Below are positions 3,995 to 26,611 of a stretch of DNA of 64,000 nucleotides, in pieces (within the stretch, counting starts at the first letter, position 1; every line of letters begins with the position of its first letter). Under the pieces are notes generated by a model. That model had not been told where the DNA came from, ran no database searches, and was given only the letters and a program-made list of their open reading frames with translations. Origin of the DNA: Kiloniellaceae bacterium (lineage in GTDB: Bacteria; Pseudomonadota; Alphaproteobacteria; Kiloniellales; J153). Both the position numbers and the translations under genes were made by a program. The stretch spans positions 1 through 64,000 of the forward strand of contig JAJFGL010000037.1 of NCBI GenBank assembly GCA_021776135.1, read 5' to 3'.

Positions 3995-4276
3995 TCAGCG
4001 CACTGTATTCAGGTTGCGCAGAGCGGCGAAGGTTTGTCCAAGCTGTTCCGTCTCGGGCGCGATTTGGCGCAAGGCCCAGCGGACCGCGAAGGCATCGTCA
4101 GCAAGATGCCCGGCTTCCGCCTCCGCTTGCGGATTGAAGCCGCCGTTACGAATAAGACCTGCCTGATGCTCGAGCCTGGCGGCCAAGTCGCGAAGGTGGG
4201 TCAGCGAACGGCGAGCCCCCTTAACGGCGTTTAGCTCAGCGCTTCGCTCGAGATCGTTGCCTGGGGGGTGGTTCAT
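3995..4276 (-). CDS. Unknown 93-aa protein with its own repressor-type operator
   Basis: This gene was not recognised. It encodes a 93-residue, charged, probably all-helical protein with runs such as RRSLTHLRDLAARLEHQ and no membrane segment or signal peptide. Two signals argue that it is real. An AGGAGG Shine-Dalgarno sequence sits 7 nt before the ATG. The 15-bp palindrome ATGCGTATTGCGCAT (4296-4310) lies just upstream, and near-copies of it occur in the repressor/gafY divergent promoter. It therefore probably belongs to the regulon of the neighbouring S24 repressor. A role as anti-repressor or GTA accessory factor is speculation. Confidence 0.68.
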   Translation of the reverse strand: MNHPPGNDLERSAELNAVKGARRSLTHLRDLAARLEHQAGLIRNGGFNPQAEAEAGHLADDAFAVRWALRQIAPETEQLGQTFAALRNLNTVR

Positions 4277-4293: not shown

Positions 4294-4313
4294 TTATGCG
4301 TATTGCGCATAAT
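4294..4313. promoter_or_regulatory. Operator O1, upstream of the 93-aa gene
   Basis: TTATGCG, a 5-bp spacer and CGCATAA form a near-perfect palindrome 18 bp before the 93-aa gene start. Its 15-bp core ATGCGTATTGCGCAT differs from O2 (ATGCGTATAGCGCAT) at one spacer base. The position over the expected promoter of the 93-aa gene suits repression by the adjacent HTH/S24 protein. The link is inferred from sequence identity with the sites in the divergent promoter. Confidence 0.7.
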
Positions 4314-4353
4314 TAGAAGACAGCTGTCAATTGCAAGCTTGTGGGAAAACGTC

Positions 4354-4989
4354 CTAGCTGGGCCGAATCGACAAAACCGGCGCGGCCCAGTCGAGCCGGA
4401 TATCCTCCATGGGCGGCGCGTTCCAACTCGACAAGACGAAATGGTTGCCGCGGTAACCGCGGCGCAGTTCCTTGACCAGGATCGGGCCCTCGTCCGCCAC
4501 CTTGACGATGCACAAGCGGTTCAGGCAATCGTCCTGCACGCCGTGGTCCTCGCGCCGGTAAAATAGCAGCCAGCCGTCGCGCATGGGGTGCATGGAATCG
4601 CCGCGCACGCGCACCGCGACCATGGGCGTATCACCGTCGCCTTCGGGCGCCCCGACCTCTTCCAGGCCGCCGCCCAGAGCGTGGTCGTCATAGGCCAAAA
4701 CCTCTTGTCCGGCGCCGACATAGCCGACGACGGCGACGGCCTCGGCGGGCGGCTTGGGGGGCTCCTCGGATGCCTCGCCATAGCGGAACTGAGCCAGGGG
4801 GCACTGGGCTAAATCGGCCATGCGGCGGATGTGAGGATCGTCGGGAATGGCGCCGTTTTCCCAGCGCGAAACATTGGATTGATCGACCCCGGCCAGCTCG
4901 GCGAAGCCGGCTTGGGAGAGGGCGAGGCCGTGGCGGAGGGCGCGGATCCGCGCCGCCAGTTCCAGGTCTTTTCGCGCGTCCTTGGGCAT
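4354..4989 (-). CDS. CI/LexA-type repressor (XRE HTH + S24 peptidase), RogA-like
   Basis: This 211-residue repressor has an N-terminal helix-turn-helix (LSQAGFAELAGVDQSNVSRWENG) and a C-terminal S24 self-cleaving peptidase domain. The cleavage-type Ala-Gly lies in YVGAGQEV, the nucleophile Ser in RVRGDSMHPMRDG, and the general-base Lys in PILVKELRRG. It is divergent from the GafY-like gene, and the space between them holds two copies of a palindromic operator. In Caulobacter the XRE-family repressor RogA controls gafYZ, and the arrangement here is equivalent. The intact peptidase site suggests induction by RecA-linked DNA damage (inference). A GTG at 4996-4998 is an alternative start. Confidence 0.88.
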   Translation of the reverse strand: MPKDARKDLELAARIRALRHGLALSQAGFAELAGVDQSNVSRWENGAIPDDPHIRRMADLAQCPLAQFRYGEASEEPPKPPAEAVAVVGYVGAGQEVLAYDDHALGGGLEEVGAPEGDGDTPMVAVRVRGDSMHPMRDGWLLFYRREDHGVQDDCLNRLCIVKVADEGPILVKELRRGYRGNHFVLSSWNAPPMEDIRLDWAAPVLSIRPS

Positions 4990-5030
4990 GGTTCTCACGG
5001 CCTCAGCGAGAATTCTTCCACAGGTTAATA

Positions 5031-5045
5031 ATGCGTATAGCGCAT
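5031..5045. promoter_or_regulatory. Operator O2 in repressor/gafY divergent promoter
   Basis: ATGCGTATAGCGCAT is a palindrome with perfect ATGCG/CGCAT half-sites and a 5-bp spacer. It lies 41 bp upstream of the repressor start, in the short region shared by the two divergent promoters. Its centre is 32 bp (about three helical turns) from the centre of O3, which would allow cooperative binding of dimers on one DNA face. Confidence 0.75.
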
Positions 5046-5062
5046 ATATTCCTTGACGATAA

Positions 5063-5077
5063 ATGTATAATGCGCAT
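5063..5077. promoter_or_regulatory. Operator O3 overlapping the gafY promoter
   Basis: ATGTATAATGCGCAT has one perfect half-site (CGCAT) and one with two mismatches compared with O2. It overlaps a TATAAT hexamer at 5066-5071 and lies immediately before the first possible start codons of the GafY-like gene. Repressor bound here would block transcription of gafY-gafZ. A TTGACG at 5053-5058 lies too near this TATAAT to pair with it, so the exact promoter elements are unclear. Confidence 0.62.
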
Positions 5078-5087
5078 TATGCATGAT

Positions 5088-5690
5088 ATGAAAAATAACG
5101 CAAGCAACCTTCGCCCGGCGCTTGAGCGCCCTCACGGGGTTCTCCTGCCTGGGCAAATCGCCGCCATGTGGCGCAGCGGCATGTCCGCGACCGCGATCCG
5201 GCGCGCTCTGGGTCTGACCGCCAAAGCGGCCCTTGCCGCCGGTATCATCGCGATCCCGCAGCGGGCATCGCGGCGCCGCGCGGGCCGTTCGTCCCCCAGA
5301 GGCAAGATATCCGCCGCCGCTTCCGGCCCCGGGCTGGCGCCAGCGCTCTCATCCTCGTCCTCGCTCTCATCCTCGTCCCAGGCCGGGCCGGCCATGGCCG
5401 GGGTCTTGAACGCCGTCGCCCAGGCGGCCGGGGTCGCGGCGGACGGCCTGCTGGGCCCCGGCCAGGAGCGGGCCTTGGCGCGGCCCCGGCATTTGGTCAT
5501 GTATTTGCTGCGCGAGCTGTGCGCGGGCGCGACCCTGCCGGCCATCGGCCATTTCCTGGACCGCGATCACACCACGGTGCTTTACGGCTGCCGCCGGGCC
5601 GTGGTTTTGCTGGCCAGGGATCCCGGTTTCCGCCGCTGGCGTGACGAGGCGCTCCGGCTGCTCAAGCACACGCCCGCCCGCCTGCAATGA
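5088..5690 (+). CDS. gafY: GafY-like GTA activator with DnaA domain IV
   Basis: This protein of about 200 residues has a C-terminal module matching DnaA domain IV: RPRHLVMYLLRELC, then LPAIGHFLDRDHTTVLYGCRRAV, which holds the DnaA signature DHTTVL. The N-terminal part (QIAAMWRSGMSATAIRRALG) looks like the GcrA-type HTH. A Ser-rich linker joins them. There are no AAA+ motifs, so it is not a replication initiator. In Rhodobacter GafA and in Caulobacter GafY a DnaA-IV-like domain binds GTA promoters. It is divergent from the repressor and overlaps the GafZ-like gene by ATGA. In-frame ATGs at 5070 and 5079 are alternative starts. Confidence 0.78.
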   Translation: MKNNASNLRPALERPHGVLLPGQIAAMWRSGMSATAIRRALGLTAKAALAAGIIAIPQRASRRRAGRSSPRGKISAAASGPGLAPALSSSSSLSSSSQAGPAMAGVLNAVAQAAGVAADGLLGPGQERALARPRHLVMYLLRELCAGATLPAIGHFLDRDHTTVLYGCRRAVVLLARDPGFRRWRDEALRLLKHTPARLQ

Positions 5691-6214
5691 CCAGGCGCCG
5701 CGCCAAGCCCGCCCTGCCCAAGCGAGAGGGCGCCGACACTTCGGCGCACGCGGGCGCCGACGCCGGGCCGCCCGAGCGTTACCGCCACGGCGACACGATC
5801 CAAAGCGAGCCGGGCGACCGGGCCGGGCTCGAGGTTCGCCGGGTCATGACCCAGAACGTCCTCGACCGCTACCTGATCCGCGACTCCATCGAGCGGCGCC
5901 AGTTCGATGCCGGCATGAAGCTGTTCCGGCTCTGGCGCGCCTCGGGCGGCAGCCCACGGGTGATCGCCAGCTACGGCCCCCGGGCGGGGGATGCACAGGA
6001 CGCCCACGACCTCAGCGACCGCCAGGCGGCCTTACGCGCCAGCGTGACCGGGGTGCTGCGCCGCATGGGCCCGCTGTCGGGCATCCTGGTTCATGTCTGC
6101 ATCTGCGACGAGTCGGCGCGCGCCTGGGCCACGGCCCGCGGCCAGGCGCCCCAAGGCGGCATCGTGGTCCTGCGCCTGGCCCTGGACGCCCTCGCCGATC
6201 ACTGGCGGCTTTAG
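5687..6214 (+). CDS. gafZ: GafZ-like GTA activator (DUF6456-type)
   Basis: This 175-residue protein matches the C-terminal half of GafA, or Caulobacter GafZ. The recognisable block is YRHGDTIQSEP, then VMTQNVLDRYLIRDSIERRQF and GMKLFRLWRASG. In the family this part works with RNA polymerase to fire the GTA promoter. The start codon overlaps the gafY stop (ATGA), so the pair is translationally coupled, as expected for two proteins that are fused as GafA in Rhodobacterales. The N-terminal 30 residues are basic and low-complexity. The assignment rests on recall of the family pattern and on context, not on a search. Confidence 0.74.
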   Translation: MTRRRAKPALPKREGADTSAHAGADAGPPERYRHGDTIQSEPGDRAGLEVRRVMTQNVLDRYLIRDSIERRQFDAGMKLFRLWRASGGSPRVIASYGPRAGDAQDAHDLSDRQAALRASVTGVLRRMGPLSGILVHVCICDESARAWATARGQAPQGGIVVLRLALDALADHWRL

Positions 6215-6471: not shown

Positions 6472-6987
6472 ATGTTTGGCAAAGACAGCAAGACCACCGC
6501 AAGCACCCCCACTCCCACAGCCACGGCCGCGCCCAAGGGCGAGACCCCGGCCAAGGCCGGCAGCAATGTTCCTTCCATTATTTCCGCCGATTTGAAAATC
6601 ATCGGCGATTTGAAGTGCGCCGGCGATATCCAGATCGACGGCACGGTCGAGGGCGATATCCACAGTCGCCTCTTGATCGTTGGCGCGGGGGCGCGCATCG
6701 AAGGCTCGATCTCCGCCGAGACGGTGCGCGTTTCCGGCGCCGTTCATGGCCAGATCAAGGCCAAGACCGTCGCCATGGACAAGACCGCCAAGGTGGTCGG
6801 CGACGTCATCCACGAAAACCTGACCATGGAGGCCGGCGCCTTCCTGGAAGGCGGCGTGCGCCGGATCGAGAAATCCGACCCCAGCGCCAGCATCTCGCCC
6901 CTGCGCCCCGGCGCCGGCGGACAGGGCGCCGCCAACGGCCAAAGCGGCACAACCCCAGGCGACGCCCAGCGTTCTTCGGTACTTTAG
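6472..6987 (+). CDS. Bactofilin (polymer-forming cytoskeletal protein)
   Basis: This 171-residue bactofilin forms nucleotide-independent filaments at the inner face of the membrane that scaffold cell-wall and shape enzymes. The central right-handed beta-helix is evident as repeats around residues 40-130: GDLKCAGDIQIDGTVEGDI, then GAGARIEGSISAETVRVSGAV, then GQIKAKTVAMDKTAKVVGDV. Flexible Pro/Thr/Ala-rich and Gly-rich tails flank the core, as usual. It probably stands alone as a host gene between the regulatory island and the oxygenase gene. A strong hairpin terminator follows at 7060-7095. Confidence 0.92.
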   Translation: MFGKDSKTTASTPTPTATAAPKGETPAKAGSNVPSIISADLKIIGDLKCAGDIQIDGTVEGDIHSRLLIVGAGARIEGSISAETVRVSGAVHGQIKAKTVAMDKTAKVVGDVIHENLTMEAGAFLEGGVRRIEKSDPSASISPLRPGAGGQGAANGQSGTTPGDAQRSSVL

Positions 6988-7495: not shown

Positions 7496-8158
7496 ATGTT
7501 CGAAAAAATCACGCCTCAGCCCCTCTTCGCCTCCACCATCTGGATTCACCACTTGAAGGCGGAGGTCGCCGGGCCCCTGAACCAGCACCTGGCGCGCCAG
7601 ATCGACCGCCTGATATCGCCCAAGCCGCCGCGCGCGCCGGGGGAGACCTGGCAGACCGAGGCGCGCCTGCACACCCTGCCCGAATTCAGCGATCTGACCG
7701 CCCTCTTCATGACCGCGGCCAAGGGCGTGCTGGAAAAGCTTGAGATCGACTACGGCGAATTCGAAATCACCGGCTGCTGGGCCAACGTGAACCCCAAGGG
7801 CGGCATCCACCCGGTCCACAATCACCCGAACAATTATTTGAGCGGCGTTTACTACGTCCAAATTCCGCCCGGCGCCGACGCGATTCAGTTTCATGATCCG
7901 CGTCATCAGCCGACCTTGATCGCGCCCCGGATCAAGAACTACAACGCCTACAACTCCATCGCCGCCCACGCCCGCGCCCGGCCGGGCCAGATGATTTTGT
8001 TTCCGGCCTGGCTGGTCCACTCGGTCGACCCCAACCCCAGCGACGAGGTGCGCATCAGCATCAGCTTCAACATCATGTTCTCCGACTACGTGCAACGCAT
8101 GAGCTACCCCAAGTGGGACGGCATCGCCCTGGAAAGACACAAAAACACGGGTGGGTGA
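7496..8158 (+). CDS. 2OG-Fe(II) oxygenase, TIGR02466-like
   Basis: This 220-residue protein resembles the TIGR02466 group of putative 2-oxoglutarate/iron oxygenases, often found in phages and marine bacteria. Likely iron-site residues lie in GGIHPVHNHPNNYLSGVYY (His) and in the C-terminal LFPAWLVHSVDPN (His). The following SDEVRISISFNIMF carries the Arg expected to bind 2-oxoglutarate. The substrate is unknown. The gene stands alone between palindromic repeats and a terminator (8251-8288). Because the family is frequent in phages, it could be part of the GTA-associated island, but nothing proves this. Confidence 0.8.
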   Translation: MFEKITPQPLFASTIWIHHLKAEVAGPLNQHLARQIDRLISPKPPRAPGETWQTEARLHTLPEFSDLTALFMTAAKGVLEKLEIDYGEFEITGCWANVNPKGGIHPVHNHPNNYLSGVYYVQIPPGADAIQFHDPRHQPTLIAPRIKNYNAYNSIAAHARARPGQMILFPAWLVHSVDPNPSDEVRISISFNIMFSDYVQRMSYPKWDGIALERHKNTGG

Positions 8159-8363: not shown

Positions 8364-11216
8364 ATGCGCCTGAGTTGGAACGAAATTAGAGCCCGTGCCG
8401 CAACCTTCGCTCAGGATTGGGCCGGCGAGGGTTATGAGAAGGGCCAGACGCAGCTCTTCTATCGGGATTTCTTTGAGGTCTTCGGGGTGCCGGTGCGCCG
8501 CGTCGCGGCTTTCGAGGAACCGGTCAAGAAACTCGGCGACAAGCGCGGTTTCATCGATCTGTTCTGGAAGGGTGTTCTTCTGGTCGAGCAGAAGAGTGCC
8601 GGCCGCGATCTAAAAAAGGCCAAGGCACAGGCGTTCGATTATTTTCCTGGGCTGAAGGACGCCGACCTTCCCAGGTATATCCTTTTAAGCGACTTCCAAA
8701 CCTTCGAACTCTACGACCTGGAAGAGAGCGAATCAATTTCCTTCCCGCTGACGGACCTTCACGATCATGTTGAGAACTTCGGGTTCATCATCGGCGTTCA
8801 AAGACGGACCTTTCGGGATCAAGACCCGGTAAACGTCCGCGCCTCCGAATTGGTGGGTAAGCTCCACGATGCCCTGGAAGACTCGGGCTACACCGGACAC
8901 GATCTCGAACAGTTTCTGGTTCGCACAGTCTTTTGCCTTTTCGCCGACGATACCGGCATTTTCGAACCCCGCGATAGTTTCCTCGACCTCTTGGAGAACC
9001 GCACGCGGGAAGACGGCTCGGACCTCGGCGGTTGGTTCGCGCAACTTTTCCAGGTTTTGAACACACCGGAAGATGGCAGGGCGAAGAATATCGACGACGA
9101 TCTCGACCGCTTCCCCTATATCAACGGCGATCTGTTTCGCGACCCACTTCTTATTCCGTCCTTCGATGCGGCCATGCGCCAACGCTTAATCGACGCTTGC
9201 CAGTTCGATTGGTCGGGAATCTCGCCGGCCATTTTCGGCTCGCTGTTCCAATCGGTCATGAACAAGGCCGAGCGTCGGGCGCAGGGCGCTCACTACACCA
9301 CCGAGAAGAACATTCTCAAGGTCATCGAACCCTTGTTTCTGGATGACTTGAGGGCGGAACTCAAACACTTGAAATCGCGGAGGGATAGCCGCCGTCTGAC
9401 CGGACTGCTGGTGTTTCAGGAACGGCTGGGTCGCTTGCGGTTTCTCGACCCGGCTTGCGGTTGCGGCAATTTCCTCATCATCGCCTACCGCGAATTGCGG
9501 GCCTTGGAGATCGAAGTTCTTAAGGAGGTGCGTCCGCGCGGGCAATTGGACGTTTTGGCGGAGTTGTTGTCCGTCATCAATGTGGATCAGTTCTACGGGA
9601 TCGAGATTGGAGAATTCCCGGCCCGCATCGCAGAAACCGCGTTGTGGATGATGGACCACATCATGAACAACGCGCTGAGCCTGGAGTTCGGGCAAACCTA
9701 TGTCCGTATCCCGCTACGCAAGTCGCCGCATATCTTGCATGCCGATGCCCTGGAGACCGACTGGGCAGAACTTTTGCCGCCTAAGGATTGCTCTTACGTG
9801 CTCGGTAATCCACCTTTCGCCGGGGCCAAGTACCAGAGCGAAGAGCAGCGCGCTCAAGTGCGCCGAATTGCGGCGCTCGGCAAGTCCGGCGGCACCCTCG
9901 ACTATGTGACCGCATGGTTCATCACCGCCGGACAATACATCCAAGCGGGTTCCGCGCAGATCGGTTTCGTCGCGACCAACTCGATCACCCAGGGCGAGCA
10001 GGTAGCGCAGCTTTGGCCGATCCTTTTCGACCGCTGTAAGCTGGAGATCGCCTTCGCGCACCGCACCTTCGCGTGGGGATCGGACGCGCGTGGCAAGGCC
10101 CATGTCCATGTCGTCATTATCGGCTTGGCCATGGTAGCCGAGGCTCCGAAGGACAAGCGCCTGTTCTCTTACGACGATATCGACGGCGAACCGCACGAGA
10201 GCGTACACGGCGCGCTCACGCCCTATCTTTTCGATGCGGGCGCGGTGGCCGACCCACACCTTGTGGTGAGGGAGGCAAGCCAACCGCTAAATGGATTGCT
10301 AAAGCTGATTATCGGCACGAAGCCAATTGATGGCGGGTATTATATCTTTACGGAAGAAGAGCGGGCGCACTTCCTTTCTGAAGAGCCTAAAGCGGCACCC
10401 TTGATGCATCCCTACATCGGAAGCCGAGAGTTCCTCGGCGGAGGGAAACGATCAATATTGGCTTTGGCAGAAATTTCACCGGACGTGCTTCAGGCATTGC
10501 CGAAGGTCAGGGAACGAATTGCGGCTGTGCGGGAGTACCGGCTTGGGATGAGGCCCCCAAACGGTAAACCGGAAACCAAACTCAAGACTCCGGGTGTTTC
10601 TTCACTTGCGCTAGCGGAAACGCCACGGAAATTTCATGTAACGGTGATTCCTACCACATCGTTTCTCGTTGTGCCGGAAGTCAGTTCGGAAAGGCGCGAA
10701 TATGTACCCATTGGCTGGATGGAACCGCCAACCATACCCAGCAACCTCGTTCGCATCATAGAAGACGCGACCATATCTCTGTTCGGCCTCCTCACCTCCG
10801 CGATGCACATGTCTTGGTTGCGGCATATCGGTGGGCGGCTAAAAAGCGATTATCGCTATTCCATCGGTCTCGTTTACAACACCTTCCCCATGCCGCCGGT
10901 TCCGAAAATGAAACTAGATAAGTTGGAACCCCTGGCCCAAGCGGTGCTCGACGCTCGTTCCGAGCATCCGGATGCGACCCTAGCAGAGCTCTACGATCCC
11001 GACTTGATGCCCGGAAACCTGCGCAAGGCCCACCGGACGCTCGACCGGGCCGTGGACCGGCTTTATCGCCGCAAGGCCTTCGGTTCGGACCGGGAGCGGG
11101 TTGAGCATTTGTTCGGGCTCTACGAGAAAATCATCGAACCCCTGGAGGCCGCGCGCCGGGCGAAAGAGAAAAAGCCCCGCCGCCGGAAAATAAAGGCTCC
11201 GCAGAAGTCCCCATAG
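8364..11216 (+). CDS. MmeI-family (type IIL) bifunctional restriction-modification enzyme
   Basis: This 950-residue single-chain enzyme probably both methylates adenine and cleaves DNA. The N-terminal nuclease has a PD-(D/E)xK-like core with Asp65 and Glu75-x-Lys77 in FIDLFWKGVLLVEQKSAG. The methyltransferase follows, with SAM motif I FLDPACGCGNFL near residue 360 and the N6-adenine motif NPPF near 481. The C-terminal third carries the target-recognition region and a Lys/Arg-rich tail. MmeI-family enzymes usually methylate only one strand and need no separate restriction subunit. The gene is convergent with the EVE/nuclease-like gene, making a small defence-like island beside the GTA-like cluster. 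Confidence 0.85.
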   Translation: MRLSWNEIRARAATFAQDWAGEGYEKGQTQLFYRDFFEVFGVPVRRVAAFEEPVKKLGDKRGFIDLFWKGVLLVEQKSAGRDLKKAKAQAFDYFPGLKDADLPRYILLSDFQTFELYDLEESESISFPLTDLHDHVENFGFIIGVQRRTFRDQDPVNVRASELVGKLHDALEDSGYTGHDLEQFLVRTVFCLFADDTGIFEPRDSFLDLLENRTREDGSDLGGWFAQLFQVLNTPEDGRAKNIDDDLDRFPYINGDLFRDPLLIPSFDAAMRQRLIDACQFDWSGISPAIFGSLFQSVMNKAERRAQGAHYTTEKNILKVIEPLFLDDLRAELKHLKSRRDSRRLTGLLVFQERLGRLRFLDPACGCGNFLIIAYRELRALEIEVLKEVRPRGQLDVLAELLSVINVDQFYGIEIGEFPARIAETALWMMDHIMNNALSLEFGQTYVRIPLRKSPHILHADALETDWAELLPPKDCSYVLGNPPFAGAKYQSEEQRAQVRRIAALGKSGGTLDYVTAWFITAGQYIQAGSAQIGFVATNSITQGEQVAQLWPILFDRCKLEIAFAHRTFAWGSDARGKAHVHVVIIGLAMVAEAPKDKRLFSYDDIDGEPHESVHGALTPYLFDAGAVADPHLVVREASQPLNGLLKLIIGTKPIDGGYYIFTEEERAHFLSEEPKAAPLMHPYIGSREFLGGGKRSILALAEISPDVLQALPKVRERIAAVREYRLGMRPPNGKPETKLKTPGVSSLALAETPRKFHVTVIPTTSFLVVPEVSSERREYVPIGWMEPPTIPSNLVRIIEDATISLFGLLTSAMHMSWLRHIGGRLKSDYRYSIGLVYNTFPMPPVPKMKLDKLEPLAQAVLDARSEHPDATLAELYDPDLMPGNLRKAHRTLDRAVDRLYRRKAFGSDRERVEHLFGLYEKIIEPLEAARRAKEKKPRRRKIKAPQKSP

Positions 11217-11248
11217 CATGAGAATGACGTTTTACAGGACGCTGCCTG

Positions 11249-12376
11249 TCAATCTTCCGCCAGTTCCTCGAATTCCGCGATAATGGAATCGTTCATGTGA
11301 CTTAAATGTTCGGTATTTCCTAGAGAATCAATCGATACGTAAGATAAGTAGGTACACTTTTCATAGAGTGGAGCCTGATCCAGAAGCGAGAAGACAGGCC
11401 GCCTGATTTGCTGAAGAACTTTGTCGCGCCTTTCGTCCGGCGCAACAATGTGAAGATGAATATTCATGTTCGGCTGCAGTGCGAGCAGGTCCGCCATACG
11501 TAAGAGGCCCGAGTAAATCGCCGTCGTGTGCTCGATTTCGAAGGCGCGGGCCATGGAACGGCCTTTCAACCAAATAACGTCGATTTGCTCGATAGTACTC
11601 AAGGTCGCGTCGTCGTAATTGAGGGGCAAGATTTCTAGGAAAGTCTTGCTGATATCCTCGGGGATAAATTCCATAACCCGGACGCGATCGCCACGCGGCA
11701 CCCAAATACGGAATCCCATTTCAGCACCGATCTGCGCGACCTTTGCCTGCATTTGAATGGACTGGCGTTCTGTATCCGGCGTTGGTGATTGAGCCGAGTC
11801 GGTTTCGGCAATCGTTTCGTTTTCGTCTCTCTCTGGGACTTCCACCGTGACTTCGCGGTCAAGAGTGCGAACCTTACGTTTTCGGGCGAGTTGGCGTTTG
11901 TCGCGGTCGGTAAGGGGATAAATCCGCTTTTCTTCCTGTTGCTTCTTTAGGAGTGAAAGCAAGAGATGCCCGTCAGGGTCCTCCATCCGCCGTAGAGATC
12001 CGCGAAAGTAGCCGGTCCACCCGGTTGACCCCTTCGGTGCCTGCCGGGTTTCGGAGAGTACATCCCAGATTTCGTTCTCGAAGATCGGTATGGATTCTTC
12101 TTGATCGAGAAGAACGAGCGGTGTCACCTTGAAACGGACTATAAACGGATCTGGATCGCTGAAGATCGGTGCATCGTCATCGAAGGTATCCGATGTTACT
12201 TTCAATGCCCCGCACCAGCGTGATAGACGAACCAAATAACAAAGAAAAATATCGCCCGGTTTGATCCGTTCTTGTGCGATATGCCTCTGACGTTCGCGAA
12301 ACCCACTAACGGCGGCGCCATGTGTGCGAAACGCGGTCCAAGTTTCCGGCGTAAAGAGATTGAGAATGTATGCCAT
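11249..12376 (-). CDS. EVE/PUA-like domain protein with C-terminal nuclease-like region
   Basis: This 375-residue protein has an N-terminal segment of EVE/PUA type (residues 1-130: FRERQRHIAQERIKPGDIFL, CYLVRLSRWCGALKV), a fold that reads modified bases. A charged linker (about 150-215) leads to a C-terminal domain with DVIWLKGRSMARAFEIEHTT. This segment is suggestive of a PD-(D/E)xK-like core, although the Lys of a classical ExK is replaced by His. Similar fusions act in modification-dependent restriction. It is convergent with the MmeI-like gene, with 32 bp between stops. A modification-dependent defence role is inferred. Confidence 0.6.
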   Translation of the reverse strand: MAYILNLFTPETWTAFRTHGAAVSGFRERQRHIAQERIKPGDIFLCYLVRLSRWCGALKVTSDTFDDDAPIFSDPDPFIVRFKVTPLVLLDQEESIPIFENEIWDVLSETRQAPKGSTGWTGYFRGSLRRMEDPDGHLLLSLLKKQQEEKRIYPLTDRDKRQLARKRKVRTLDREVTVEVPERDENETIAETDSAQSPTPDTERQSIQMQAKVAQIGAEMGFRIWVPRGDRVRVMEFIPEDISKTFLEILPLNYDDATLSTIEQIDVIWLKGRSMARAFEIEHTTAIYSGLLRMADLLALQPNMNIHLHIVAPDERRDKVLQQIRRPVFSLLDQAPLYEKCTYLSYVSIDSLGNTEHLSHMNDSIIAEFEELAED

Positions 12377-12541
12377 TCAGTCAGGTTAACGACCTACTGC
12401 ACGAGGCTCAACGAATAATGGTTGCCTCGGTTTCAGATAAATAAACAATCTTCCACAGCCCACCGTCTTCCCGGCGGAACGCTAAAATGCTACCCATAAT
12501 CACACTCAAGAATTGAACGTCGCGAAGAGCAACCCGCCCGG

Positions 12542-12618: not shown

Positions 12619-13248
12619 TTGGCGGGGCACCGGCGTCTTACGGCGATGCAGCGGCGCTTCGCCGAGGAATATATCGTCGATCTCAATGCCACCCAGGCGG
12701 CCTTGCGGGCCGGTTATAGCGCCGGCTGCGCCAAGACTCACGGCCACAAGGTGTTGCGGCGGCCCGATGTGGCGGCCCTGATCGCCGAGGCGAAAGCCAT
12801 GCGCGCGGCGCGGGTCGGCCTGACCGCCGACCGGGTGGTGAGCGAGCTGGCCAAGGTCGCCTTCGGCGATCCGCGGCGGCTGTTCTCCCTGGGCGCGAAG
12901 GGCGCGACCCTGCGCGCGCCGAAGGAACTGACCGACGCCGAAGCGGCGCTGATCTCGGAAATAACGGAAACCACCTCGGCCTCCGGCGCCGGCACCAAGC
13001 GCATCAAGCTGCATTGCAAAATGGCCGCCCTCATGGCCCTGGCCAAGCATCTGGGCATGTTCGCCGGCACGGGCAAACTGACCCTGGGGCAGAATGACGA
13101 CAACGCCGAAAGCGGCCAAGACGGCCAAGACGGCGGGGGCGGGGGCGGGGGCGGGGAGAGCGCCCGCGACGCCCTCGCTCGCCGTATCGCTGGCATCGCT
13201 GAGCGCCTTGAAGCGGACGCCGCTGCTGGCGCCTCTAAGCGAGGCTGA
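12619..13248 (+). CDS. Terminase small subunit (GTA gp1-like)
   Basis: This 209-residue protein should recognise DNA for packaging and load the large terminase. Its N-terminus (LTAMQRRFAEEYIVDLNATQAALRAGYS) is the signature of the Terminase_2/P27-type small subunits. I chose the TTG at 12619 because GGAGG lies 8 nt upstream and this start keeps the conserved N-terminus. The C-terminal tail contains eight successive Gly encoded by a G-rich tract (13135-13156), then a helical end. It overlaps the large subunit gene by 155 bp. Confidence 0.88.
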   Translation: MAGHRRLTAMQRRFAEEYIVDLNATQAALRAGYSAGCAKTHGHKVLRRPDVAALIAEAKAMRAARVGLTADRVVSELAKVAFGDPRRLFSLGAKGATLRAPKELTDAEAALISEITETTSASGAGTKRIKLHCKMAALMALAKHLGMFAGTGKLTLGQNDDNAESGQDGQDGGGGGGGGESARDALARRIAGIAERLEADAAAGASKRG

Positions 13249-14491
13249 AGCCGCCGCGTTTCATTTCGATTGGCGCTTCTGGGCCCGGCCGCAACAGTTG
13301 CCGCCGCCCGGCGATTGGACCACTTGGCTGGTGCTGGCCGGGCGCGGCTTCGGCAAGACCCGCTGCGGCGCCGAATGGGTGCGGGCCATGGTCTGCGGCG
13401 CCACGCCTTTAAGCGCCGGGGCCCATCGCCGGGTCGCCCTGGTGGCGGAAACCGCCGCCGATGCCCGCGATGTCATGGTCGAGGGCGAAAGCGGTTTACT
13501 GGCGGTGCACCCAAAGGGCTTCCGCCCCCTTTACGAGCCGTCCAAGCGGCGCCTGACCTGGCCCAACGGGGCACGCGCGATTCTCTATAACGCGGTCGAG
13601 CCGGATCAGTTGCGCGGGCCTCAGCACGACCTGGCCTGGGCCGACGAACTGGCCAAGTGGCGCCACGCTCAGGCGGCCTGGGATCAACTGCAATTCGGCC
13701 TGCGCCTGGGCGCGCGGCCGCGCCAGTGCGTGACCACCACGCCCCGCCCCATCGCGGTGCTGAAAGCCCTGATCGAAGACCCGGACACGGCGGTCACGCG
13801 CGGGTCGAGCTATGACAACATCACCAATCTGGCGCCGGCCTTCATGGCCCGCATCGTGCGCCGCTACGAAGGCACGCGCCTGGGCCGCCAGGAACTGAAC
13901 GGCGAGATACTGGAACAAGCCCCCGGCGCCCTGTGGAACCGGACCGCCATCGATATCTTACGCCGGCGCGAGGCCAAGGACCTGATCCGCATCGTGGTCG
14001 CGGTCGATCCCGCCGCCGGCTCGGGGGCAAACAACGACGAGACCGGCATCGTGGTCGCCGGCCTGGGCGCCGACGGCCATGGCTATGTGCTGGAGGATCT
14101 GTCCCTGCGCGCCAGCCCCGATACCTGGGGCCGGGTGGCGGTGGGCGCCTACTGGCGCTGGAACGCGGACCGCATTATCGGCGAAGTGAACAACGGCGGC
14201 GAGATGATCGAACATGTTCTGCGCACCGTCGATCCAAGCGTCGCCTACAAGGCGGTGCGCGCCAGCCGGGGCAAGGCGGTGCGCGCCGAGCCGGTGGCCG
14301 CCCTCGACGAACAGGGGCGGGTTCACCACGTCGGCGCCTTTCCCGAGATGGAGGACCAAATGTGCGCCATGACCGCCGATTTCGACCGCGCCACGGCCGG
14401 CTTCAGCCCCGACCGCGCCGATGCCCGGGTCTGGGCCCTGAGCGAGCTCATGCTCGCCCGGCCGGGCGCGCCGCGTATCGAGGGACTGTGA
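13094..14491 (+). CDS. Terminase large subunit (GTA gp2-like)
   Basis: This 465-residue packaging motor has an ATPase with Walker A LAGRGFGKTRCG (about residues 81-92) and Walker B DLAWADEL (about 179-186). The C-terminal RNase H-like nuclease has VAVDPAAGS near residue 302 and DRADARVWAL near 440. In GTAs it packages random host DNA by the headful mode. The start is uncertain: the first 40 residues are Ala-rich and lie in the overlap with terS, and a TTG near 13208 could also serve. It is followed by the portal gene after 1 bp. Confidence 0.95.
   Translation: MTTTPKAAKTAKTAGAGAGAGRAPATPSLAVSLASLSALKRTPLLAPLSEAEAAAFHFDWRFWARPQQLPPPGDWTTWLVLAGRGFGKTRCGAEWVRAMVCGATPLSAGAHRRVALVAETAADARDVMVEGESGLLAVHPKGFRPLYEPSKRRLTWPNGARAILYNAVEPDQLRGPQHDLAWADELAKWRHAQAAWDQLQFGLRLGARPRQCVTTTPRPIAVLKALIEDPDTAVTRGSSYDNITNLAPAFMARIVRRYEGTRLGRQELNGEILEQAPGALWNRTAIDILRRREAKDLIRIVVAVDPAAGSGANNDETGIVVAGLGADGHGYVLEDLSLRASPDTWGRVAVGAYWRWNADRIIGEVNNGGEMIEHVLRTVDPSVAYKAVRASRGKAVRAEPVAALDEQGRVHHVGAFPEMEDQMCAMTADFDRATAGFSPDRADARVWALSELMLARPGAPRIEGL
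13135..13156 (+). other. G-quadruplex-type tract at terS/terL overlap
   Basis: Four G-runs (5, 5, 5 and 4 bases) separated by single C bases fulfil the G-quadruplex pattern on the coding strand. In terS it encodes polyglycine; in the overlapping terL frame it encodes alternating Ala/Gly. It could fold in mRNA and affect the switch from terS to terL translation (inference). Confidence 0.6.
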
Positions 14492-14492: not shown

Positions 14493-15686
14493 ATGACCCT
14501 GCGCCATGCCTGGAAGGCCCTCTGGACCGAGGAAACCAAAGCCTCCGCCGCCGGGCCCTTGATCGCCATGCGCGCGCCGGGGCGCGCGGTCTGGTCGCCG
14601 CGCCGTTTCGATGCTTTCGCCGAGGAAGGCTACCGCCGCAACGTCATCGCCTACCAGGCGGTCAACCGGGTCGCCCGGGCGGTGGCATCCGTGACCTGGC
14701 GCGCCTTCGAGGGCCGCCGGGCGCTGGAGTCTCATCCCATTCTGGCGCTGCTGGCGCGGCCCAATCCGGTCATGGCGCGCGGCGAGTTTCTGGAGGCCGT
14801 TACCGGCTATCTCCTGATCGCCGGCAACAGCTATGTCGAGGCGGTGGCGGCCGGCGGCACGGGAAGCCCGCGCGAACTCTGGCCCCTGCGGCCCGACCGC
14901 ATGAAGGTGATCGCCGGCAAGTCCGGCCTGCCCCAGGGCTACCTCTACAGCCTCGGCGGCGCCGAACAGCGCTGGGACGCGGACCCGCTCACCGGCGCTT
15001 CCGCGATCTTGCACCTCAAGACCTTTCACCCCCTGGACGATTGGTACGGCCTTTCCCCGGCTGAGCCGGCGGCGGCGGCGATCGATCAGCGCAACGAATC
15101 CGACAAGTGGAACATGGCGCTGCTGCAAAACGGCGCCCGTCCTTCCGGGGCCCTGGTCTACGAGCCCAAGGGCGCCGAGGGCGCCAACCTCAGCGACGCG
15201 CAGTTCGCCCGCCTGAAAAAAGAAATCGCCAGCCAATTCAGCGGCGCGGGTAACGCCGGCCGGCCCTTGCTGCTGGACGGCGGGCTGACCTGGCAGGAGA
15301 TGAGCCTCTCGCCCAAGGACTTGGATTTTCTGGAAACCCGTCACGCCGCCGCGCGCGATATCGCCTTGGCCTTCGGGGTGCCGCCGCAGCTGCTCGGGAT
15401 TCCCGGCGACAACACCTACGCGAACTACCGCGAGGCGCGCCTGGCCCTCTGGGAAGAAACCGTGATCCCCCTGCTCTGTCATCTGCGCGACGAGTTCAAT
15501 GCCTGGCTGGCGCCGCAATTCGACGGGGAGGTAAGCCTTAAATTCGATCTGGACGACGTGCCCGCCCTGACGTTACGGCGCCAGAAAGTCTGGGCCCGGC
15601 TTCAGGCCGCCGATTTCCTGACCCTCAACGAAAAGCGCCAGGCCGTTGGCCTGGACGCTCTCGAGGGCGGGGATAGTCTCGCTTAG
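14493..15686 (+). CDS. Phage portal protein, HK97 family (GTA gp3-like)
   Basis: This 397-residue protein forms the dodecameric portal ring through which DNA enters and leaves the capsid. Typical HK97-family segments are visible: YQAVNRVARAVASVTW, HPILALLARPNP, LLIAGNSYVE and FGVPPQLLGIPGDNTYANYREARLALWEET. The length is normal. The ATG is 1 bp after the terL stop. Its 3' end overlaps the last bases of a gene on the opposite strand, an unusual interruption of the late operon. Confidence 0.94.
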   Translation: MTLRHAWKALWTEETKASAAGPLIAMRAPGRAVWSPRRFDAFAEEGYRRNVIAYQAVNRVARAVASVTWRAFEGRRALESHPILALLARPNPVMARGEFLEAVTGYLLIAGNSYVEAVAAGGTGSPRELWPLRPDRMKVIAGKSGLPQGYLYSLGGAEQRWDADPLTGASAILHLKTFHPLDDWYGLSPAEPAAAAIDQRNESDKWNMALLQNGARPSGALVYEPKGAEGANLSDAQFARLKKEIASQFSGAGNAGRPLLLDGGLTWQEMSLSPKDLDFLETRHAAARDIALAFGVPPQLLGIPGDNTYANYREARLALWEETVIPLLCHLRDEFNAWLAPQFDGEVSLKFDLDDVPALTLRRQKVWARLQAADFLTLNEKRQAVGLDALEGGDSLA

Positions 15687-16168
15687 TAAAGGTAGCCCAT
15701 GAAGTAGCGGCTGCCGGGGGCGATATAACCGCGACCGTAGCTGTCGTAGCACATGGTGCCGCCGTAGCGCGCCGTGCGGCCCTGGTAGGTGTGGGTGCCG
15801 GTGGTCGCATGGCAGTCGCGCCGGTACGGCTGGGCCGCCGGTGCGTAGTTATTTTGCGTCCTATAGCTTGGCTGGGACAGCAAGTGGCCGAGCACGACGC
15901 CGCCGGCCAGGGCGCCGGCGATGGCCGGACCGTAGTCATAGCTTTTGCGGCCGCGATACCCGTATCCGCGACGCCCGTATCCGCGATTCTTGTAACTGCG
16001 ATTCTTGTAACTGCGAGGTCCGTAACCATGGCGCTTGTAGCCATGACCGTAGCTCTTGGAAGAGTGCCCGCTGTAGCCGCGGCTCTCGTGGCGGTTACCG
16101 TCGGCGAAGGCCGGCGCGCTGGCGAACAGCAGGGCGGCGGCGGATAAGGCAAGGGCAAGGCGTTTCAT
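15683..16168 (-). CDS. Secreted Gly/Arg/Tyr-rich protein with glycine zipper
   Basis: This 161-residue exported protein has a clear signal peptide (MKRLALALSAAALLFASAPAFA). It continues with a very basic Gly/Tyr/Arg/Lys/Ser-rich stretch, including the near-repeats SYKNR SYKNR GYGRRGYGYRGRK. A short glycine-zipper segment follows (AIAGALAGGVVLGHLL), then a C-terminal domain with two Cys. It was not recognised beyond that. AAAGGA upstream on the minus strand supports the start at 16168. It is antisense to the late operon, between portal and protease genes, so it has its own promoter. Such genes inserted in virion clusters are often independently expressed cargo. Envelope association is likely. 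Confidence 0.72.
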   Translation of the reverse strand: MKRLALALSAAALLFASAPAFADGNRHESRGYSGHSSKSYGHGYKRHGYGPRSYKNRSYKNRGYGRRGYGYRGRKSYDYGPAIAGALAGGVVLGHLLSQPSYRTQNNYAPAAQPYRRDCHATTGTHTYQGRTARYGGTMCYDSYGRGYIAPGSRYFMGYLY

Positions 16169-16275
16169 AGCGGGTGTCCTTTCGTTCATGGTCAAGGGTA
16201 CTACGCGAGCGCTGGCTCCGCCATCCCCGCCCTGAGCCAAGGTACTGGAATATCAAGGCAATGAGAGGTTCAAGC

Positions 16276-17031
16276 ATGCGATCCAAGGCCGTGAGCGACC
16301 CTGGCGATTTCGGCGCGCCGGAGCGCCTGAACATCCCCTTCGAGCTGAAGTCCCTGGCCACCAGGCGGATCGGGGAAGGCTTGGAAATAGGGGTTTTCGA
16401 CGGTCTGGCCTCCACCTTCGGCACCCCTGACCGGGCTGGGGACGTGATTGAGCCGGGCGCCTTTCGCGATAGCTTGGCGCGCGCCGGGCGGATCAAGATG
16501 CTGTGGCAACACGACCCCCGGGCGCCGATCGGCATCTGGGAGCATATCGAAGAAACCGCGGCCGGCCTGGCGGTCAAGGGCCGCCTGGTCCTGGAGGTGC
16601 AACAGGCGCGCGAGGCCCTGGCCCTGCTGCGCGCCGGCGCCGTCGATGCTTTATCGATTGGCTTTTCGGTGCCCCGCGCGGGCGCCAGTTTCGACCGAGA
16701 ATCTTCGCTGCGGCGCCTGAACCGGATCGATCTTTGGGAGGTTTCCATCGTGACCTTCCCCGCCAACCCGGACGCCCGTGTGGCCCGGGTCAAGGGCTGG
16801 GGCGGAGCCGGATCCGGAAACCGCCTACCCAGCGAACGAGACTTCGAGCGCTACCTGACGCGGGATGCCGGGTTCAGCCGCTCGCAGGCCCGGACCATTG
16901 TCGGTTCCGGGTACAAGGCCCTCACGCCCAGGCGGGATGCCGGGTGCGATTCGGCCAAGAACCTCGAGGATCTGGCGGCGCGCTTGCGGCGCGTCGCCGG
17001 CCTCGTGGCGGCCGGTTCGCGGCCTCTCTAA
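16276..17031 (+). CDS. HK97-type prohead protease (GTA gp4-like)
   Basis: This 251-residue S78-family serine protease processes capsid protein during head maturation. The catalytic residues are evident: His in MLWQHDPRAPIG (near residue 78), Ser in DALSIGFSV (near 127), and Glu in DLWEVSIVTFPANP (near 155). The C-terminal region after residue 175 is Arg-rich. GAGAGG lies 7 nt before the ATG at 16276; ATG 16261 is possible but has no Shine-Dalgarno sequence. It sits upstream of the capsid gene in the usual order. Confidence 0.93.
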   Translation: MRSKAVSDPGDFGAPERLNIPFELKSLATRRIGEGLEIGVFDGLASTFGTPDRAGDVIEPGAFRDSLARAGRIKMLWQHDPRAPIGIWEHIEETAAGLAVKGRLVLEVQQAREALALLRAGAVDALSIGFSVPRAGASFDRESSLRRLNRIDLWEVSIVTFPANPDARVARVKGWGGAGSGNRLPSERDFERYLTRDAGFSRSQARTIVGSGYKALTPRRDAGCDSAKNLEDLAARLRRVAGLVAAGSRPL

Positions 17032-17063
17032 ATCAATCGGAATCTTCAGCCAGGAGGACCATC

Positions 17064-18227
17064 ATGGAAATCGAACAGGTCAAGGACGCGGTCGACGAGC
17101 TCGGCCGTACCTGGACCGCCTTTCAGGATCGAAACGACCGCCGCGCCGATAGCGACCAAGCCGTCCTGTCGAAAATGAACACGCGCATGGATCAACTCGA
17201 AGGCGTCATCCGCCGCGCCAACCGCGGCGTGACGGCGACCGGCGCCGGGCCGGATTACGGCGCCGAGGCCAAGGCCTATTTCGACTATCTGCGTCACGGT
17301 ACGCGCGATGAGCCGAATGCCAACACGGCCGCCCTGTCGCGTGAGGAGATGAAGGCGCTAAGCGCCGGAAACGATCCGACGGCGGGGTATCTGGCCCCGG
17401 TCGAATTCGCCCGCGAGATCATCAAGTCGGAGATCGAGTTTTCGCCTCTGCGCGCGGTCGCCCGGGTGCGTCAAACCTCGCGCCGTTCCTTGCAGATGCC
17501 CAAGCGGCGCGGCACCTTCGGCGCCCTTTGGACCGCCGAGGCGGCGGTTCGCGCCGAGACCGAGGGGCTGACTTACGGGCTGGAAGAATTTCCGACCCAT
17601 GAGATGTACGCCTTGCTCGACGTTTCCGAACAGATGATGGAGGATTCCGAATTCAGCCTCGAAGAGGAGCTGCAAAACGAGTTCTCCGAACAGTTCGCCG
17701 TCACCGAAGGCACGGCCTTCGTAACCGGCAACGGCAGCGGCAAACCCGAAGGCATCCTCCAAAACAGCGAGGTCGGCGAGACCAACTCCGGCAGCGCCGC
17801 CTCCCTGGCCGACGCGACCGGCCAGGCGAACGGCCTGATCGACCTCTATCACGACCTGAAAACCGGTTACGCCCTTCAGGGCTGGTGGTTGCTCAACCGG
17901 GCGACGCTTGGCGAGGTCCGTAAGCTGAAGGACGGCCAGAATAACTACATCTGGGCGCCGGGCCTGGCCAATGGGGTGCCGAACACCATTCTCGGCCAGC
18001 CTTATCTGGAAGTGCCCGACATGCCGGACGTGGCGGTCGGGTCCACGCCAATCATGTTTGGCGATCTGCGCCGGGCCTACACCATTGTCGACCGGATCAG
18101 CCTGTCGATTCTGCGCGACCCCTTCACCCAGGCAACCAGCGGCAACATCCGTTTCATCGCCCGGCGCCGTGTCGGCGGGCAGGTGGTTCTGGCCGAGGCG
18201 ATCCGCAAACTCAAAGTCAGCGCCTAA
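17064..18227 (+). CDS. Major capsid protein, HK97 fold (GTA gp5-like)
   Basis: This 387-residue capsid subunit has an N-terminal scaffold-like helical region (about 1-100: MEIEQVKDAVDELGRTW, NTRMDQLEGVIRRA), probably removed by the gp4-like protease. Capsid-fold segments follow: GYLAPVEFAREIIKSEIEFS, DVSEQMMEDSEF, GNGSGKPEGIL and a C-terminal VGGQVVLAEAIRKLKV. An AGGAGG lies 6 nt before the ATG, as expected for the most abundant particle protein. It is 32 bp after the protease gene. Confidence 0.95.
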   Translation: MEIEQVKDAVDELGRTWTAFQDRNDRRADSDQAVLSKMNTRMDQLEGVIRRANRGVTATGAGPDYGAEAKAYFDYLRHGTRDEPNANTAALSREEMKALSAGNDPTAGYLAPVEFAREIIKSEIEFSPLRAVARVRQTSRRSLQMPKRRGTFGALWTAEAAVRAETEGLTYGLEEFPTHEMYALLDVSEQMMEDSEFSLEEELQNEFSEQFAVTEGTAFVTGNGSGKPEGILQNSEVGETNSGSAASLADATGQANGLIDLYHDLKTGYALQGWWLLNRATLGEVRKLKDGQNNYIWAPGLANGVPNTILGQPYLEVPDMPDVAVGSTPIMFGDLRRAYTIVDRISLSILRDPFTQATSGNIRFIARRRVGGQVVLAEAIRKLKVSA

Positions 18228-21454: not shown

Positions 21455-21738
21455 TGCCATACCGTCTGATAGATCCCGGCGAAACCCTGGACTACGCCTG
21501 CGACTGGGGCGATTTCCTGGCCGATGGCGGCAGTTCGGGCGACACAATTCAAACCAGCCTGTGGTCGGTCGAACCCCCTGGGCCAACGCTGACCGGCGCC
21601 TCCGTTTTAGGCGGGATAACCCGTGTCTTTCTCTCCGGCGCCCAAGCCGGCCAAGTTTACCGCCTAACCAACACCGCCACGACCGCCTTGGGGCGAACGG
21701 CGGAACAAAGCTGGACTCTGCGATGCGAGAACCGTTGA
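21454..21738 (+). CDS. Small phage-type protein (unknown, 94 aa)
   Basis: This 94-residue protein starts MPYRLIDPGETLDYACDWGDFL and has GGITRVFLSGAQAGQVYRLT. The latter resembles the small proteins with a beta-sandwich fold that sit before head-tail connectors in many phages (the pattern of duplicated Ig-like stretches that restrain tail or fibre subunits). Coupled upstream by TGATG, it overlaps the connector gene by 16 bp. Confidence 0.55.
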   Translation: MPYRLIDPGETLDYACDWGDFLADGGSSGDTIQTSLWSVEPPGPTLTGASVLGGITRVFLSGAQAGQVYRLTNTATTALGRTAEQSWTLRCENR

Positions 21739-22373
21739 AACTCCAACTCACGGCGCCGCCCGCGCGGCTGCCGGTTGATTTGAACGAACTAAGGGCGCAG
21801 GTGCGTCTCGAGGATGACCGGACGGACGAAGACGCCATCCTGCTCGCTAATTTGCGGGCCGCGGCCGAGGCTTGTGAAACTTACACGGGCCGGTCCTTGA
21901 TTACCCAAACCTGGACCCAATTCCGCGATGCTTGGCCGGACGCCGAACTTGGCGATGCCTTGCACGAGGGATGGCGCGAAGGGCCGCTTGATATATCGGG
22001 CACGGGCGCGTTGCTTCTGCCGCGCCCGCCCTTGCAAGCTGTCGTGCACGTCAAGACTTTCTCGGCGGAGGATGCGGAAACTCTGTGGCCGGCAAGCGCC
22101 TATTTCGTTGATACGGCCGGGCTTCCCGGGCGATTGGTCCCGCGTAAAGGGCAGGTTTTCCCGGTGGTGGGGCGGGGCGCCAATGGCATTGAAATCCAAT
22201 TTATCGCCGGTCATGGCGATGCGCCCGGCGACGTGCCCTCGCAATTGCGTCAGGGCATCGTTCAGCTGGCGGCCTATCTGTTCGAGAATCGCGGCGATGG
22301 TTTGACCGGCTCGGCCCTGACTGCATCGGGGGCCGAGAGCCTATGGCGAGCTTCGATCGTGGCGCGGCTTTAG
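21723..22373 (+). CDS. Head-tail connector protein (GTA gp6-like)
   Basis: This 216-residue connector attaches below the portal ring. Its N-terminal helices include PVDLNELRAQVRLEDDRTDEDAILL, then LRAAAEACETYTGRSLITQTW, a typical phiE125 gp8 / Phage_connect pattern. It continues with a beta-rich middle and a C-terminal helix (PSQLRQGIVQLAAYLFENR). The ATG at 21723 gives the natural N-terminus (MREPLKLQLTAPP). It is 1 bp from the next gene. Confidence 0.88.
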   Translation: MREPLKLQLTAPPARLPVDLNELRAQVRLEDDRTDEDAILLANLRAAAEACETYTGRSLITQTWTQFRDAWPDAELGDALHEGWREGPLDISGTGALLLPRPPLQAVVHVKTFSAEDAETLWPASAYFVDTAGLPGRLVPRKGQVFPVVGRGANGIEIQFIAGHGDAPGDVPSQLRQGIVQLAAYLFENRGDGLTGSALTASGAESLWRASIVARL

Positions 22374-22374
22374 C

Positions 22375-22725
22375 ATGGCGGCGCGGCAAATTTTAGCCGG
22401 GACTATGCGTCACCGCTTGGTTCTGCAAGCCCGCAACCCAATCGCCGATGGTGGCGGCGGACAAGGCGGCGATCCCTGGGCGGCCCCGGTCACGGTCGCT
22501 GCGGTTTGGGGACGGTTAGAACCGCTTAGCGGCAACGAGCGGCTGCACGCCATGCAACTGGAGAGCCGTGTGTCCCATCGCATTACCATTCGCTACCGTC
22601 CTGGCGTGACCGCCGGGATGCGATTGGTTCTCGGCACGCGGCATTTCAATATCCGCACGGTCATGGATGTCGAAGAGCGCCGCCGCAGGCTCCAACTGCT
22701 GTGTGAAGAAGGTGTGGCGACATGA
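22375..22725 (+). CDS. Head closure / head-tail adaptor protein (GTA gp7-like)
   Basis: This 116-residue protein of the SPP1 gp16-type stopper family has the classic LAGTMRHRLVLQARNP start, WAAPVTVAAVWGRLEPLSGNE, RITIRYRPGVTAGMRL and a C-terminal LQLLCEEG. It closes the portal channel and docks the tail. The stop overlaps the next ATG by 4 bp. Confidence 0.9.
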   Translation: MAARQILAGTMRHRLVLQARNPIADGGGGQGGDPWAAPVTVAAVWGRLEPLSGNERLHAMQLESRVSHRITIRYRPGVTAGMRLVLGTRHFNIRTVMDVEERRRRLQLLCEEGVAT

Positions 22726-23102
22726 TCCGTATACGCTTAACCGGCCGGCGCGGCGTGCCCAAGGTGCTTCAAGAGAGCTTAACGCGCGCCGTCGCCGAAA
22801 GCGCCGGGGAGTTGCGCGATACCGCGCGGGATCTTCTTGACCGTTCCGGCGGCGATTCGCGCCCGGGCGAAGCGCCGCGCCGGGATAGCGGACGCTTGCG
22901 CGACAGCCTTTTCGTGCGCGCCAACGGCCTTTCGGCGGAGGTCGGTACGGCGCTTGGCTACGGCGCACATTTGGAATTCGGAACCCAGAACATGGCGGCG
23001 CGGCCTTGGCTGCAGCCCGCGTTCGAAGCCAGCAAGGACCGGATTAAGGCGCGGTTAAAGACGGCCGTGCGCGCGGCCTTGCGGGGGAGGGGTTTCTCAT
23101 GA
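22722..23102 (+). CDS. HK97 gp10-like tail component
   Basis: This 126-residue protein matches the HK97 gp10 minor-tail/neck family: long N-terminal helix (PKVLQESLTRAVAESAGELRDTARDL), DSGRLRDSLFVRANG, GTALGYGAHLEFGTQNMAARPWLQPAF and a final helix. It overlaps neighbours on both sides by 4 bp. Confidence 0.88.
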   Translation: MIRIRLTGRRGVPKVLQESLTRAVAESAGELRDTARDLLDRSGGDSRPGEAPRRDSGRLRDSLFVRANGLSAEVGTALGYGAHLEFGTQNMAARPWLQPAFEASKDRIKARLKTAVRAALRGRGFS

Positions 23103-23512
23103 GCGCGGATTCGCAATGGGCCCTGCAGAAAGCGATCTTCGCCGCCCTAAGCGCGGATGCGGGTATCAAGGCCCTGATAGGAGACCCTCCGCGTATCTTC
23201 GATCATGTACCGCCGCAGAGCATTTTTCCCTACCTCGCGATCGGCGAAACGAGTTCGCGGCCTTTCGACGTGAAGACCAATGAAGGTATGGAGCAGACCC
23301 TAACGCTTCATTCATGGTCGCGCTATCGCGGCCTGAAGGAAATCAAGGATATCATGGCGGCGGTGGTGACTGCGGTGGACCGGCAGGCCTTGAGTTTAGC
23401 CGGGCACACACTCGTTCTGTTACGTTTCGAACTCGGCACGACATTTCTGGATAGCGACGGCCTGACCCGTCACGGCGTGCAAAGGTTCCGGGCCATCACC
23501 CAGGCATCGTGA
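23099..23512 (+). CDS. Tail terminator, DUF3168 family (GTA gp8-like)
   Basis: This 137-residue protein caps the tail tube. Family signs are LQKAIFAALSADAGIKALIGDPPRIFDHVPP, FPYLAIGETSSRPFDVK, LTLHSWSR and the C-terminal DGLTRHGVQRFRAI. Its TGA overlaps the GTG of the MAF-like gene that opens the glycosylation-type cassette. Confidence 0.9.
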   Translation: MSADSQWALQKAIFAALSADAGIKALIGDPPRIFDHVPPQSIFPYLAIGETSSRPFDVKTNEGMEQTLTLHSWSRYRGLKEIKDIMAAVVTAVDRQALSLAGHTLVLLRFELGTTFLDSDGLTRHGVQRFRAITQAS

Positions 23513-26609: not shown

Positions 26610-26611
26610 GC

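Follow-up and report, generated by a model that had tools for sequence, protein, structure and literature searches.

The 64,000-nucleotide stretch of DNA analyzed here (the window) is one contig, C31, in a genome of 3.96 Mb, and the named relatives are Kiloniellaceae MAGs. At positions 4354 to 6214, an XRE/S24 repressor gene, the product of which is here designated RogA-S24, is divergent from a gene pair encoding GafY-like and GafZ-like proteins. RogA-S24 (4354 to 4998, minus strand) contains an XRE HTH domain (Pfam HTH_31; E value, 6.5e-11) and a Peptidase_S24 domain (Pfam; E value, 6.2e-6); its likely start is the ATG at 4989, from which residues are numbered below. The gafY-like gene (5088 to 5690, plus strand) is predicted to encode an N-terminal HTH-like stretch and a C-terminal DnaA domain IV with a DHTT motif (Bac_DnaA_C; E value, 7.1e-17, and alignment). 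Its mechanical ORF begins at 4770, and footprints across genomes support the ATG at 5088. The gafZ-like gene (5687 to 6214, plus strand) encodes a DUF6456 protein (E value, 3.6e-10, and alignment). The initial annotation had described a DnaA domain IV protein without an AAA+ domain that overlaps a DUF6456 protein by ATGA, and this was confirmed: no Pfam match to an AAA+ domain was found in the GafY-like protein, and the two genes overlap at 5687-ATGA-5690. Orthologues of the repressor, gafY, and gafZ were found in identical order in four further genomes of the family, so the layout is not due to chance. The window family thus has five members across two genera, the relatives being mostly MAGs. 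In all five, the repressor gene adjoins orf93 (3995 to 4276, minus strand), which encodes a small conserved helical protein.

The module lies upstream of a set of structural genes, and the spacing of about 6.4 kb reported earlier proved correct when taken from the gafZ stop to the start of the terS ORF at 12619. Host-type genes lie in between, encoding a bactofilin (6472 to 6987, plus strand; PF04519, 1.6e-24) and a 2OG-Fe(II) oxygenase (7496 to 8158, plus strand; PF13759, 6.7e-28). In one relative (G022, locus L010), the terS-type promoter has a further, nearly identical copy upstream of the 2OG oxygenase gene (positions 11217 to 11266 of L010, minus strand), which suggests that the oxygenase belongs to the regulon. 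Between the oxygenase gene and the terS promoter, the window also has an MmeI-type restriction-modification gene and an ORF of no assigned function (8364 to 12376); no MmeI match was found at the corresponding place in the relatives' loci compared.

The structural genes form an HK97-type head-tail cluster of ~25 kb (12.6 to 37.7 kb) that is related to RcGTA and homologous to the RcGTA-like (type I) head-tail gene set in content and order. It begins with terS and terL (12619 to 14491, plus strand; Terminase_2, 1.8e-32; Terminase_6N, 6.4e-30), followed by the genes for the portal, prohead protease, and major capsid protein (14493 to 18227, plus strand; RcGTA portal, 4.3e-103, and capsid, 5.7e-44). 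Profile matches identified the connector, head closure, tail tube, tape measure, Dit (Rcc01695 family), hub, NlpC, and megatron genes (21561 to 37250, plus strand), and the cluster carries both the Rcc01695 and the baseplate-hub families. The best solved match of the portal, the capsid, and the megatron (6e-61) was RcGTA. The megatron scored below the NCBI GTA_megatron cutoff, and no match to the GTA TIM-barrel domain was found in it: its C-terminal half (gene at 33927 to 37250) is of the RcGTA type, and for its N terminus the match is not to the GTA TIM-barrel region but to the megatron chain of PDB 8gtc.

The cluster also has several additional genes. A glycosyltransferase and methyltransferase cassette (23509 to 26158), an unusual cargo for a GTA, is conserved at 78 to 84% in two relatives. 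A conserved antisense gene between the portal and protease genes (15683 to 16240, minus strand) encodes a glycine/tyrosine-rich, apparently secreted product with no Pfam match. Before the tape measure gene, three adjoining small proteins with secretion-like starts (27611 to 29445, minus strand) all match one ORF per relative and represent a local expansion.

A 19-bp operator, TTATGCGYATWRCGCATAA, was found with up to three mismatches at three sites in the module and at two weaker sites elsewhere in the 3.96-Mb genome. The module sites are (i) O_L, TTATGCGTATTGCGCATAA (4294 to 4312), at the orf93 promoter, which is conserved and has 0 mismatches; (ii) O_R1 (5029 to 5047), just upstream of the gafYZ -35; and (iii) O_R2 (5068 to 5086), which overlaps the gafYZ -10. 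O_R1 and O_R2 were identified by the genome-wide site search and in footprints. The gafYZ promoter, PgafYZ, reads TTGACG-16-CATTAT (5053 to 5080, plus strand) and is conserved in the footprints, which in five genomes placed one operator over the orf93 promoter and two at PgafYZ, with conservation over the -35 and -10. The conserved gafY ATG is located only 7 to 8 nt past the -10, suggesting that the gafYZ mRNA is probably leaderless. The operators make orf93 a predicted target of the repressor as well. A relative of orf93 was found on a viral contig next to apparent phage early genes; the AlphaFold model of orf93 was too weak for a fold search. The overall plan, with a central repressor and operators on left and right promoters, resembles that of lambda.

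Another conserved element, TTCCACA(G), lies before both gafY and terS, and a variant is present at orf93. Footprints and a genome pattern search placed the DnaA-box-like element TTCCACAG at gafYZ/rogA (5016 to 5023, plus strand), and footprints placed its variant, TTTCCCACA, at orf93 (4340 to 4348, minus strand). A block conserved in the relatives (12451 to 12500, plus strand) contains a candidate GTA promoter, TTCCACAG-N37-ATAAT, which has no recognizable -35 and is followed by a long 5' leader to terS. The pattern TTCCACAG-N25-50-ATAAT had exactly two matches in 3.96 Mb, before gafY and terS, and a reversed-pattern control likewise had two. In G018, the gafY and terS sites have both changed together to CTTCCCCAG. 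DnaA contacts its box through a DHTT motif. Since GafY retains this motif, TTCCACAG is proposed to be the GafY site. An action of gafYZ on terS is supported at the sequence level by the presence of the box before both genes together with the DHTT motif of GafY. The GafY motif of Caulobacter crescentus has been hard to define (PMC11150451), and TTCCACAG provides a defined candidate to examine for GafY binding.

The analysis shows the genes with their domains and key residues, the positions of operators and boxes, and the conservation, synteny, and purifying selection of the locus, and from these we infer binding, repression, cleavage, activation, and particle production as follows. RogA-S24 would occupy the TTATGCG-type operators at the leftward orf93 and rightward gafYZ promoters and keep both off. 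Its removal, for which RecA-stimulated self-cleavage at the Ala93-Gly94 bond through Ser132 and Lys173 is the most likely route, would allow gafYZ to be transcribed as a leaderless mRNA. GafY would then bind TTCCACAG in the promoters of gafYZ and terS, and GafZ would load on RNA polymerase and take the enzyme along the long leader and across the 25 kb of the cluster, a GafYZ mechanism shown for C. crescentus (PMC11150451, PMC9632790). Control of gafYZ by the repressor is very likely, and control of the cluster by gafYZ is nearly as well indicated.

The C. crescentus system is the closest in kind: a LexA-like XRE repressor controls gafYZ, GafY has DnaA domain IV, GafZ corresponds to the C-terminal half of GafA, the cluster is related to RcGTA, and the promoter has an upstream activator site and a long 5' leader (PMC9632790, PMC11150451). 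However, rogA, gafYZ, and the cluster of C. crescentus occupy three loci (CCNA_00080, CCNA_01111-01112, and CCNA_02880-02861), whereas in the window all lie within ~9 kb. C. crescentus RogA also lacks the cleavage residues (PMC9632790) and uses GGAA-N4-TTCC, whereas in RogA-S24 the residues are intact and the predicted operator is of the TTATGCG type; GGAA-N4-TTCC was absent from the repressor-gafY intergenic region, where a different palindrome is present. In Rhodobacter capsulatus, the halves of GafA correspond to GafY and GafZ, and the portal, capsid, and tail tip are homologous, but GafA is one fused, unlinked protein under the control of CtrA and quorum sensing, and no S24 repressor has been described (PMC6363796, PMC9638019). 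The proposal of a split GafA (GafY/GafZ) beneath a divergent S24-type repressor and tightly linked to an RcGTA-like structural cluster is supported.

The initial annotation had also set this linkage against the well-known systems. The contrast holds for R. capsulatus and C. crescentus, in which the activator is unlinked, but tight linkage was rejected as a unique feature, being common in Sphingomonadales loci. In 28 Sphingomonadales-type loci (L040 to L082), a divergent S24-derived repressor adjoins a gafZ-like gene, and terL lies within ~10 kb downstream in 18. The linkage distance is 3.5 to 9 kb in many Sphingomonas genomes, and the spacing between gafZ and terL is 22 to 54 kb in eight other gaf-bearing genomes. 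Unlike in the window, the repressors of the Sphingomonadales loci are degenerate at all cleavage positions, the model detects no DnaA domain IV partner, and TerL belongs to another clade. In a class-wide sample, a RogA-type repressor was divergent from gafZ or gafYZ in 21 genomes of seven families. On the basis of these two sets, the divergent module and its linkage are common and probably old. The arrangement is not new: RogA-type repressors transcribed divergently from gafYZ are found widely, and an S24-like repressor of gafYZ is already known from C. crescentus (PMC9632790).

The genuine difference is the intact S24 dyad of the window family. The scissile Ala93-Gly94, Ser132, and Lys173 of RogA-S24 are invariant in all five members, so that the earlier description of an intact self-cleavage site is right by motif, whereas the Ala-Gly bond, the catalytic Ser, and the Lys are missing from 49/49 RogA-type repressors beside gafZ or gafYZ elsewhere (those of the 28 Sphingomonadales-type loci and the 21 class-wide genomes). 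In a profile comparison that did not include Caulobacter RogA, RogA-S24 and the RogA-type repressors matched in 38 HTH columns (probability, 20%), and a search of G000 with the RogA-type model gave no match. Because the two match in the HTH alone, the window repressor is probably a different repressor in the same seat. A PDB sequence search with RogA-S24 alone gave no match, its profile reached essentially HTH proteins only, and the S24 half of its AlphaFold model was of low confidence (pLDDT, <50). Among the named phages, the C-terminal half of RogA-S24 is closest to repressors such as that of the RcGTA-related, mitomycin C-induced Mesorhizobium prophage vB_MseS-P1 (PP232116, PMC11409702), which has the same cleavage motifs (GYVGAG, RGDS, and LVKK) and 41% identity over 104 amino acids. 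vB_MseS-P1 differs in being a true temperate phage with an integrase. Its overlapping, DnaA-annotated gp23 and gp24 were rejected as a GafYZ pair, since the DnaA-C match of gp23 was weak and gp24, the protein tested beside it, had no DUF6456 match.

DNA-damage (SOS) induction is plausible, and no other single reading fits the intact repressor better, although we put it at slightly below even odds. GTAs induced by mitomycin and other DNA-damaging agents are known in Brachyspira (BhGTA, or VSH-1; PMC9662315). BhGTA comes from another phage lineage. We know of no GafYZ in BhGTA. The intact dyad is no proof of SOS control, because XRE-S24 proteins of the same order that have neither a gafYZ link nor a phage context also keep it. 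These proteins fit the principal alternative, namely, that RogA-S24 senses growth state or another ligand in the manner of RogA, that the dyad is kept for folding or another reason, and that DNA damage is not involved. C. crescentus RogA works without the cleavage residues (PMC9632790), and the 49 other repressors beside gafZ or gafYZ also lack them. Stationary phase or nutrients are the cues to which the known alphaproteobacterial GTAs respond. However, the invariance of the Ala-Gly bond, Ser, and Lys across two genera and a dN/dS of 0.12 for RogA-S24, a constraint as strong as that on host genes, speak against this alternative, which is considered less likely than the main reading.

A further alternative is that the module and cluster form an ordinary temperate prophage with an immunity region, and not a GTA. 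The CI-like repressor is intact, the operators are lambda-like, orf93 is phage related, the 25-kb cluster carries accessory genes, its TerL groups with phages, and pairs of S24 and DUF6456 genes do occur in real prophages. Two such cases, G417 and G136, with DUF6456 matches near S24 genes, were rejected as GTAs on account of their prophage contexts. Against this, in two congeneric genomes the block has the same host neighbors at either end, with groES, metE-like, hydroxylase, and methyltransferase genes to its left and polyprenyl synthetase and methyltransferase genes to its right, together with SppA and glyQS in one relative reaching that far. In another genus (G018, L012), the left flank is conserved along with the module and terL. 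The distance from the module to terL is ~4.5 to 7 kb in relatives with both; in G020, the module and cluster are on separate contigs. Bactofilin and 2OG oxygenase genes of host type separate the two parts, and the protein identities of the element are near those of neighboring core genes. No integrase or replication genes were recognized among the ORFs scanned, which were a part of all ORFs, and dN/dS in all genes tested ranged from 0.05 to 0.40, the fastest evolution being that of GafY, GafZ, and orf93. Since the element occupies one chromosomal locus in related MAGs, is under purifying selection, and has no integrase that was found, it is read as a domesticated element, not a fresh prophage, and the prophage explanation is improbable. 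Within the family, the homologues are linked to the GTA-like cluster by conserved synteny and by one candidate GafY box before both gafY and terS, and are not ordinary prophage regulators devoid of such a link. The idea that the element is a conserved remnant that has lost particle production, for which the incompleteness of related contigs might speak, is also improbable, as the identified head, packaging, and tail genes are open and dN/dS is well below 1 throughout.

GafZ itself gave no tblastn match in the named phages. Many IMG/VR contigs (L085 to L131) have a lone GafZ-like DUF6456 gene, mostly with 35 to 46% identity, and in the inspected contigs it occupies the place expected of a late antiterminator. 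These relatives were rejected as GTA regulators, since those inspected lie downstream of replication genes in phage contigs and no GafY was detected.

In the TerL tree, the window family fell outside the sampled GTA-bearing genomes and grouped with six phages (support, 99/97), and in the portal tree it was also outside the sampled GTAs (split, 99/100). AU tests against a grouping of GTAs with the window family gave p values of 0.039 and 0.011. In these trees, phages branch within the GTA group as well, and the named rows do not include R. capsulatus or C. crescentus. The cluster may represent a separate domestication, which is favored but not proved because phages fall among the GTAs and there are no named RcGTA or CcGTA rows. 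Given this position in both trees relative to the sampled alphaproteobacterial GTAs, the cluster is called a GTA by resemblance and synteny, not by membership.

As a whole explanation, a domesticated RcGTA relative under a linked, phage-type immunity region is given a probability of about 0.6. More tentatively, and with the odds somewhat against it, the element could be an independently domesticated GTA close to its phage ancestor. Directly upstream of gafYZ and the structural genes, it would have kept a working CI-type repressor that is open to SOS cleavage and has operators on its left and right, and DNA damage would induce it. If so, the degenerate RogA family would illustrate the outcome of a longer domestication for a repressor of this sort. 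Five Kiloniellales genomes in an earlier survey yielded no RcGTA-like cluster (PMC6821227). The natural signal for GTA production in C. crescentus is unknown (PMC13236601). With a GTA-like element that has kept the cleavage machinery, one can ask directly whether DNA damage triggers some of the alphaproteobacterial GTAs and whether domestication includes a step in which cleavage is lost.
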